A stretch of DNA of 34,667 nt, taken from contig DAHUYJ010000004.1 of the NCBI GenBank assembly GCA_027315225.1, positions 24,580-59,246 of the forward strand. The letters are read 5' to 3'. This DNA is from Candidatus Saccharimonadota bacterium. Its GTDB lineage: Bacteria; Patescibacteriota; Saccharimonadia; Saccharimonadales; UBA4665. The notes under the pieces were generated by a model, which did no database searches, was not told the DNA's origin, and saw only the letters and a list, made by a program, of their open reading frames with translations. Positions 3,339 to 25,359 of the stretch are shown here, in pieces; the first letter of the stretch is position 1, and every line of letters begins with the position of its first letter. Both the position numbers and the translations under genes were made by a program.

Positions 3339-4477
3339 TAACGTGTAATGAAGTGCTGATAATCGGAAGCTGACTCTGTAATTGTATCGACGCGGTCCCA
3401 GCCGCCACCGGGCGCGCCGGCGTCATTCATCTCGCGCACGGTTATGGTCCCGTTGGAGTTGACGGCTGTAACGATTGCGACATGGCCTTGGCCTGCCGCA
3501 GCGTACGCTGTTTGCGCGATCGAACCGACGCTCGGCGCGCCGCTGACATTCCAGCCGCTTAATGATGCGTAATAGGCCCAGGTACTGGCATTGCCCCAGT
3601 TGGCAGGTACTGATATCTGGCTGGCTACATACCAGGTACAATACCCGAAATCATATCCGTTATAACCATATGCCGGACCCCCGCCCCACGGAAAGACATT
3701 CAACGACGTGACAGACGCAGGTGGCGTACCGCTGGGTATAATGATTTGTTCTCCAGGTTGAAGGCCGGAGAGCTCAGCATCATTAAAAGCTATTATCTGG
3801 CTTTTGTTGGCACCAAATCTGGCAGCCAGGCTAGCGGGAGTATCCCCGGATCGAACTGTATAGACAATACCATTGACCGGCGGAATAACTAATTTAGTGC
3901 CTGGAGCGATGGCGTTGCCGCTTAGGTTGTTAGACCAGCTGATACTGTTAGACGTAACTCCAAACTTAGCGGCTAAACCCGATATGGTGTCACCAGGCTT
4001 AGTGACGTAATCCTGGATGTCAGCCCGTGATTTTAGTGCCGTCGCTACTACCTGCGGTTTGCTGACGACATTATCATTCGACGCCGCGATCGCCACATCA
4101 GCTTCCTGTGACTGCACCTGGTTATTTATAGCGGTTGTTTCCGGCAAGCCGTTGAGTTGGGCGACAGTCTGTGCGATATCTGCCGAAGATAATTGGTCTA
4201 ACGGGTTGGTTTCAACTGGTGTTATAGAACTGCTCAGGGACGCTGTCTTGGTTGAGTCGGTGCTGTTATGGGGCGTTTGTAACACAATGGCCACGATAAT
4301 GGCGAGAATGGCAACGTTGGACAGTAACAATGCAACGCGTACTGACCGGCGGCGAGCAGCTTTGCGCTTTAGTAGAGGCAGCCGCCGATACAACCTTGCC
4401 AAACGCGAAGCGGCTGGAACGGCTAGACGATCAGTAATTAATGTAGGTTGATTGGTACTGATACGAACTCCTGGCAA
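3338..4477 (-). CDS. LysM-LysM-CHAP peptidoglycan hydrolase, membrane-anchored
   Basis: A 379-residue exported wall hydrolase. Residues 1-45 are basic and cytoplasmic. One membrane segment follows (VALLLSNVAILAIIVAIVL, about 47-65), then a Ser/Thr-rich linker. Two LysM repeats bind glycan, from about 155 (VTKPGDTISGLAAKFGV) and 205 (YTVRSGDTPASLAARFG). A C-terminal CHAP amidase/endopeptidase domain has its catalytic Cys in FGYCTWYVA and His in GQGHVAIVTAV. The start is uncertain: the annotated TTG overlaps the last base of a TATAAT box, so a transcript from that promoter would lack it, and no ATG, GTG or TTG with a ribosome site follows closely. Expression from the upstream promoter at 4632 would include it. 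The gene is coupled to obg and could act on the cell's own wall or on a host wall. Confidence 0.9.
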   Translation of the reverse strand: MPGVRISTNQPTLITDRLAVPAASRLARLYRRLPLLKRKAARRRSVRVALLLSNVAILAIIVAIVLQTPHNSTDSTKTASLSSSITPVETNPLDQLSSADIAQTVAQLNGLPETTAINNQVQSQEADVAIAASNDNVVSKPQVVATALKSRADIQDYVTKPGDTISGLAAKFGVTSNSISWSNNLSGNAIAPGTKLVIPPVNGIVYTVRSGDTPASLAARFGANKSQIIAFNDAELSGLQPGEQIIIPSGTPPASVTSLNVFPWGGGPAYGYNGYDFGYCTWYVASQISVPANWGNASTWAYYASLSGWNVSGAPSVGSIAQTAYAAAGQGHVAIVTAVNSNGTITVREMNDAGAPGGGWDRVDTITESASDYQHFITR

Positions 4478-4482
4478 TTATA
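4477..4482 (-). promoter_or_regulatory. TATAAT box overlapping the LysM-CHAP start
   Basis: A perfect TATAAT on the minus strand shares its last base with the TTG start codon of the LysM-CHAP gene. No convincing -35 is present. If used, it would start transcripts at about 4470, inside the annotated reading frame and just before or in an AGGAG. It could be a chance AT-rich match. Confidence 0.3.
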
Positions 4483-4497
4483 AAAGCTTGCTAGTTA

Positions 4498-4620
4498 GCG
4501 CAGGTTAGGCACCGTTCTATTACATAATTGTGGCGATAGTCACGCCCGCTCACATACCGTCTTCCTGCGCATAGTTCTTAGCGAGTCCCGCAAAACCACG
4601 CGACCTCTGTAAGTAACTAC
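4498..4620 (-). ncRNA. Structured leader or small RNA candidate upstream of LysM-CHAP
   Basis: The 164-base gap between mltG and the LysM-CHAP gene holds no ORF but folds into two domains on the minus strand. Domain 1 (about 4620-4572) is closed by TAGTT-a-CTTA pairing with TAAGAACTA, nine pairs with one bulged A, and carries an inner hairpin around CGCG/TGCG. Domain 2 (4570-4498) is closed by GCGCAGG pairing perfectly with CCTGCGC over 73 nt, with an inner GGCG/CGCC hairpin. A promoter (TGG-TATAAT, 4635-4627) starts transcription just before it. I compared it by eye with ydaO (c-di-AMP), GEMM, SRP and several other riboswitch consensus motifs and saw no match, so function is unknown. Confidence 0.4.
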
Positions 4621-21840: not shown

Positions 21841-21917
21841 TGGTGGGCGATGAGGGACTTGAACCCCCGGCCTCGTGAATGTGAATCACGCGCTCTAGCC
21901 AGCTGAGCTAATCGCCC
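21841..21917 (-). tRNA. tRNA-Val (anticodon CAC)
   Basis: A full cloverleaf with encoded CCA, 77 nt. The acceptor GGGCGAT pairs with ATCGCCC, followed by A and CCA. The D arm contains AGCTCAGCTGGCTAGAGC. The anticodon arm is CGTGA-TTCACAT-TCACG with anticodon CAC, reading GUG. The T arm has the TTCAAGT loop closed by GGGGG/CCCTC with one G-U pair. An extended -10 (TGG-TATAAT) lies about 35 nt upstream. Confidence 0.97.
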
Positions 21918-24960: not shown

Positions 24961-25359
24961 TGGTGGAGCTGCCGAGTACTGCCCTCGGGTCCGCCGGTTT
25001 ATCTAAGGTTAATCGTCTACAGGCTTAGGCCATTTATGTATTCTCGAGGTTTGGCCGATAAATGACCAAAAAACCATTCCTCAAAGTCCGAAGTCTTAGC
25101 AGGCATTATGGACAGTAATGCCTGGGCGTCCTGGAAATATGGCGCGCCTTCGCGCTACCAGGCGTCACGTTCGGCGCGGCTTTAATAATTAAACTAAAGC
25201 TGGTGCGAAACTAGGCACGGCGAATGCAGCTTTTACGCTGGCGACCATGCTAGCTACGCGATCTGTAAGTTTTGCACTTATAGAAGTTGCCTATACGCTG
25301 ACAAGCGACCTGCTGATATAACCGATAAAGTCCGAGCGTCGAGCTTAAAATTCAGCCCC
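24961..25359 (-). ncRNA. ssrA: tmRNA (transfer-messenger RNA)
   Basis: Rescues stalled ribosomes by trans-translation; 399 nt with encoded CCA. The 5' GGGGCTG pairs with 3' CAGCTCC, including the G3-U pair that AlaRS recognises. H2 is visible as TTTATC near the 5' end pairing with GATAAA near the 3' end. The 3' region has CCTAAGCCTGTAGACG, matching the family's CTAAGCATGTAG, and hairpins such as GGCATTA/TAATGCC and CATTTAT/ATAAATG for the pseudoknots. The tag frame opens GCA with A at -4 and runs 28 codons to TAA (25275-25189), AKLTDRVASM to PSFAPALV. The T arm is CCGAG-GGCAGTA-CTCGG, so the usual TTCRANN loop is missing. It lies between marR and the pilin gene. Confidence 0.94.

Follow-up and report, generated by a model that had tools for sequence, protein, structure and literature searches.

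The 34,667-nt stretch of DNA analysed here (the window) belongs to the genome of a Saccharibacterium (0.97 Mb in 62 contigs), whose nearest publicly available relative is a Candidatus Saccharibacteria MAG. On its minus strand the gene order is mltG, a LysM-LysM-CHAP wall hydrolase gene and obgE. The mltG gene (YceG-like, Pfam PF02618; 4642..5706, minus strand) was detected in 91 of 99 relatives and was used as the upstream synteny anchor. The hydrolase gene (Pfam PF01476 and PF05257; 3338..4462, minus strand) encodes 374 amino acids when counted from an AUC start, with approximately 45 residues at the N-terminus ahead of a membrane helix, then two LysM domains and the CHAP domain. The order mltG then LysM-CHAP, with a leader in between, was found in approximately 80 of the 99 relatives, and 80 intergenic regions from relatives together with that of the window made up the leader comparison set. 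In several genomes (G052:C1:31277, G020:C35:1033, G019 and others) the LysM-CHAP protein is accompanied by shorter CHAP proteins of approximately 160 to 250 amino acids. Rfam also placed a tmRNA (24961-25359) and a tRNA gene (21844-21917) on the minus strand of the window.

A sequence-only reading of this locus had described an mltG terminator followed by an extended -10 element. The -10 element is present on the minus strand (TGGTATAAT, 4635-4627), and an element of the type TGnTAnnnT occupies the equivalent position in nearly all relatives. The terminator was not recovered: our terminator scan found none, and the -10 element begins 7 nt past the mltG stop codon. The predicted transcription start, at approximately 4620, coincides exactly with the beginning of the first long helix described in that reading.

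The promoter region also contains a DNA octamer, ACAGRGGT, of which 43 copies were found in the 81 mltG-to-LysM-CHAP leader regions where 0.41 were expected. The octamer is present in 32 of the 81 regions (relatives G001-G098), the window included, and stands at fixed distances from the -10 element, mostly 53 to 56 nt before its end and otherwise 42 to 45 nt before or 14 to 16 nt after. The window copy (ACAGAGGTCG, 4601..4610, minus strand) is at position +16 counted from the -10 element's end. The octamer looks like a putative operator or activator site. It also precedes other promoters, for example that of metK in L209. A genome-wide uptake sequence, AACAGGGGTSG, was considered and rejected, since only 0 to 7 copies were present per genome, many of them within ORFs.

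The two long helices that had been described for 4498-4620 are both found in the minimum free energy fold of the minus strand. The first, P1 (4571..4620), pairs GTAGTT-a-CTTA (4620-4610) with TAAGAACTAT (4580-4571), or in the transcript GUAGUU-a-CUUA with UAAGAACUAU, at a pair probability of approximately 0.65. The second (4498..4570), assigned from the fold with no alignable relative, consists of seven perfect pairs between GCGCAGG (4570-4564) and CCTGCGC (4504-4498) at a pair probability of approximately 0.85, and encloses a small GGCG/CGCC hairpin (4546-4543 with 4535-4532). Both helices dominate the predicted ensemble, yet neither rises above what chance would give when the window is taken by itself. 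The fold has no excess stability over either 4498-4620 (z = -1.01) or 4440-4620 (z = +0.73), and a perfect run of at least seven Watson-Crick pairs occurred in 83 of 300 dinucleotide shuffles. The second helix was found as described, but shuffles did not bear out its standing above chance, an equally GC-rich run appearing in 12 of the 300 (4%). A start-stop mini reading frame, AGGA-N7-ATG-TGA, is also present in the leader (4550-4566, minus strand) and may be due to chance. The best ungapped helix would pair the 5' end differently, through a long match of GGTAGTTAC with GTGACTATC; this alternative was rejected because its probability is zero in the ensemble of a transcript starting at 4620.

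The evidence for a structured leader is comparative and does not come from the window by itself. A BLAST search for DNA-level similarity to the leader among the 99 relatives gave chance-level matches only. Because the leader DNA could not be aligned between relatives, position-specific tests were used instead. For P1, the best ungapped helix between the first transcribed bases and the downstream sequence was scored, with the downstream parts swapped between leaders as the control. Over 69 leaders the pairing score was 14.99 against 12.32 in the swap control (sd 0.29; maximum of 100 swaps 13.01). In the window's family (f1), with 42 leaders and the window left out, it was 15.35 against 12.15 (sd 0.41; maximum of 200 swaps 13.17), approximately 8 SD above the control, and in the 11 nearest relatives it was 15.86 against 12.20 (sd 0.86). 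The score for families other than f1 was inside the swap range (14.04 against 12.88; sd 0.58, maximum 14.61). In most leaders the predicted 5' end is folded into a hairpin, and helices of the P1 type with different sequences occur at the same place in relatives, such as AUUAUUUACU/AGUAAAUAAU, CAUACUAUUU/GAAUAGUAUG and GGUAAC/GUUACC. The first long helix, nine pairs with one bulge in the sequence-only reading, thus belongs to a conserved feature, as the helix at that position covaries in relatives. Taken as a set, whole leaders also fold more stably than their shuffles, with a mean z of -2.35 (sem 0.21, n = 67).

A second position-specific element was found at the ribosome site. Strong hairpins ending 1 to 4 nt before the Shine-Dalgarno sequence, with a sharp positional profile, were present in 31 of 74 leaders versus 5.2 (maximum 11) in shuffles, being seen in 13 of 42 leaders in the window's family and in 17 of 23 in other families. 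In the window the corresponding hairpin is weak (4474..4491, minus strand): GCAA (4491-4488) pairs with TTGC (4477-4474), giving four pairs only and a score of 10 where the cut-off was 12. It is followed by the Shine-Dalgarno GGAG (4468..4471, minus strand), which is at the same place in relatives.

These observations bear on two other explanations of the locus. The region could be a free small RNA of approximately 120 nt, with a second promoter at TATAAT (4482) driving the gene. The TATAAT string does exist at 4482-4477, where it occupies the loop and 3' arm of the pre-Shine-Dalgarno hairpin, and in relatives its position is that of this hairpin; a separate promoter there is unsupported, as a transcript from it would begin approximately at the Shine-Dalgarno site itself. 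The scan found no intrinsic terminator between 4498 and the gene. We consider this explanation highly improbable. The region could also be fast-evolving untranslated DNA without regulatory structure, in which selection acts only on the promoter, the Shine-Dalgarno sequence and the start codon. The absence of DNA-level similarity in the 99 relatives agrees with this, as do the window's own fold (z -1.0) and the 4% of shuffles with a second helix of this type, but such DNA would not be expected to show covariation of P1 in the window's family, a mean z of -2.35 over 67 leaders or a position-specific pre-Shine-Dalgarno hairpin, nor to have a recognised Rfam motif in the same place in other families (see below). 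This makes an unstructured leader improbable, and the earlier proposal of a structured cis-acting leader ahead of LysM-CHAP is supported by the relatives.

The start codon of the hydrolase gene is itself unusual. Rather than the TTG at 4477, the likeliest start is ATC at 4462-4460 (minus strand), where the window ribosome site reads GGAG-TTCGT-ATC. Conservation in relatives points to this codon: GGAG followed after 5 to 10 nt by an in-frame AUH was found at the matching position in 74 of 81 leaders (AUU in 66, AUC in 6 and AUA in 2), a count that is conditional on starts having been picked by a search for in-frame GGAG-N5-10-AUH and that includes one probably false call (L132). For approximately seven relatives, which do not have a GGAG-AUH site, the start seems to be AUG. 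In 49 of the 74 leaders the reading frame has no ATG, GTG or TTG from the preceding stop codon down to AUH, so that no canonical start could serve instead of the conserved codon at Shine-Dalgarno distance. The residues following AUH are alike between relatives (Ile-Ser/Arg-Thr/Asn, with mostly Ser, Arg and Asn codons after the start), the residues preceding it are not, and AUU and AUC exchange at the start between close relatives. The AUH start extends to family f35 and to other orders of the class. As a control, the start position of obgE, the gene following LysM-CHAP, was read from translated peptides and was Met in 41 of 45 cases and Val in 4.

The textbook case of an AUU start is infC, and infC and pcnB of E. 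coli are the classical examples. In the genomes studied here infC also has AUC, AUA or AUU after a GGAG-like site (L236-L265), with AUA in the window's own genome (L237). In S. aureus, infC (AUA), ccpN and cvfC1 are AUH-start genes, and in poor medium AUU and AUA starts yield approximately 10% of the output seen with AUG, an effect attributed to IF3 (PMC13009471); for pcnB of E. coli the same article refers to Binns and Masters 2002. That so rare and weak a start codon as AUU or AUC is conserved throughout the group suggests that protein output is deliberately held low. The usual gene callers accept ATG, GTG and TTG only, and the N-terminus of the LysM-CHAP protein is therefore probably misannotated in databases. 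Our literature search found no paper linking Saccharibacteria to AUU starts or to the CHAP domain, and the start-codon observation can be called new only with reserve.

The sequence-only reading had noted that the leader resembled no known motif. For the sequence of the window this is true: Rfam gave the leader no match at the gathering score and none at E <= 10 on 551 nt. For the locus it is not true, since the lysM-TM7 RNA (RF03005) is found in the same place in other families. RF03005 matches were obtained at the mltG/LysM-CHAP locus in families f35, f15, f25 and f3, with E values down to 7.9e-22 when leaders of f35 and of other orders in this class were scanned. Like this RNA, the window leader comes from the Saccharibacteria (TM7) and lies directly 5' of a LysM gene. 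The window did not reach the RF03005 threshold of 61.5 bits, its own genome was without a match, and RF03005 was found at the locus in none of approximately 58 genomes of its family. In f35, approximately 100 nt 5' of the RF03005 boundary are conserved as well (GCACATTTGTG ... GCGAGTGGGAA ... TCATnAATG; L290-L300, alignment A6 columns 200-300), and the Rfam model may be missing a 5' domain of lysM-TM7 RNA. A literature search, whose coverage did not extend to the papers that name lysM-TM7, found no function for this RNA.

A hairpin was identified in 18 leaders, mostly from other families, with a near-invariant loop that carries GGUCGA, the core of lysM-TM7 RNA, and is followed by UAAGAACCA. 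Differing loop lengths had misaligned the stems in a MAFFT alignment of hand-picked GGUCGA segments, and the model (R1) was therefore built from an equal-loop subset. All five pairs of the stem were changed on both sides, with 97.7% of cells paired, and the covariation score was 0.441 versus 0.168 when the whole structure, not the stem alone, was tested. Of 149 genomes, 13 had a match to the model, and none had more than one. Nine of these matches were at leaders in the set and four in new genomes, and all were ahead of a LysM-CHAP gene. One member, G090, also has a weak RF03005 match at the locus (E 0.15) and so bridges the GGUCGA-hairpin form and the RF03005 form. A pseudoknot of the GGUCGA loop with the UAAGAACCA tail was judged weak, having only three, largely invariant, pairs in a helix with 75% of its cells paired. 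Model R1 had no match in the window, and in the window's family GGUCGA was present in one of 44 leaders without the domain, where 0.5 were expected. In this family a degenerate form of the core, GGUCGA or UAAGAACC, did not rise above shuffles and was also rejected. With no model match, no RF03005 at the locus and GGUCGA at chance level in the family, the window leader occupies the lysM-TM7 locus in a divergent form and is not a recognisable lysM-TM7 RNA.

The same results weigh on the possibility of a riboswitch. The middle domain would then act as the aptamer, binding for instance c-di-AMP or a precursor of the wall, and would switch either the pairing of P1/P2 or the accessibility of the Shine-Dalgarno sequence. 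Many members of the order do carry a covarying hairpin with near-invariant GGUCGA and UAAGAACCA, and Rfam assigns lysM-TM7 to the class Cis-reg. However, the GGUCGA hairpin is the sole domain that could be an aptamer, and it is undetected in the window and at chance level in its family. Where present, it is confined to the LysM-CHAP gene, once per genome, unlike most classes of riboswitch, each of which serves several genes. It is followed by no terminator, and there is no sign of a ligand. A riboswitch is thus unlikely for the window; the core-bearing relatives may have riboswitch action.

We consider it likely that 4498-4620 is the 5' part of a cis-acting mRNA leader of LysM-CHAP, approximately 160 nt long, at the lysM-TM7 locus, in which the core was lost or replaced and the AUH start holds translation low. 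Transcription would begin at approximately 4620 from the extended -10 promoter, and the 5' end would be sealed in P1. Hairpins at the 5' end slow 5'-end-dependent decay in other bacteria, and P1 may protect this mRNA in the same way. Between P1 and the pre-Shine-Dalgarno hairpin lies the middle domain, through which any regulation is conjectural. The ribosome would load at GGAG beside a hairpin and initiate slowly at AUC (AUU in most relatives), a codon presumably disfavoured by IF3. The wall hydrolase would then be kept low, at a level that may track the availability of IF3, as for infC itself. The models for 5'-end protection and for control by IF3 come from E. coli and other bacteria, and the stability of the RNA, the low output and the dependence on IF3 are to be read as predictions. 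An excess of an enzyme that cuts the wall would be harmful.

As infC and LysM-CHAP share the AUH start, a broader proposal is that across Saccharibacteria the abundance of IF3 dictates how much of a wall-remodelling enzyme an obligate epibiont has, the lysM-TM7 leader being an RNA device that tunes weak AUH initiation. We offer this tentatively, as a speculation that is more doubtful than the reading of the leader itself. The order-wide AUH start raises the idea that the lysM-TM7 leader acts on initiation at a purposely poor start codon. If true, a wall hydrolase would join the few known AUH-started genes, and the locus would show how an ultrasmall epibiont restrains a potentially self-harming enzyme.

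Among known systems, the c-di-AMP riboswitch (ydaO-yuaA) of wall-hydrolase leaders is alike only in the kind of downstream gene, and it was not matched when Rfam was run on the window and, at E <= 5, on 40 other leaders. The lysM-TM7 RNA (RF03005, Cis-reg) is closer: it occurs in the same phylum directly 5' of a LysM gene, has a pre-Shine-Dalgarno hairpin (weak in the window, clear in relatives) and then GGAG, and in Rfam-matched members the LysM gene also starts with AUH. The window leader differs in having no model match (E <= 10) and no GGUCGA hairpin and in that a hairpin begins right at its 5' end. P1, which is conserved, could not be aligned with the outer helix of RF03005, which encloses a three-way junction, and may or may not correspond to it. 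With the AUH-start genes infC, pcnB, ccpN and cvfC1 the locus shares a Shine-Dalgarno sequence followed by a conserved AUU, AUC or AUA, but it differs from them in encoding a membrane-anchored wall hydrolase behind a structured leader.
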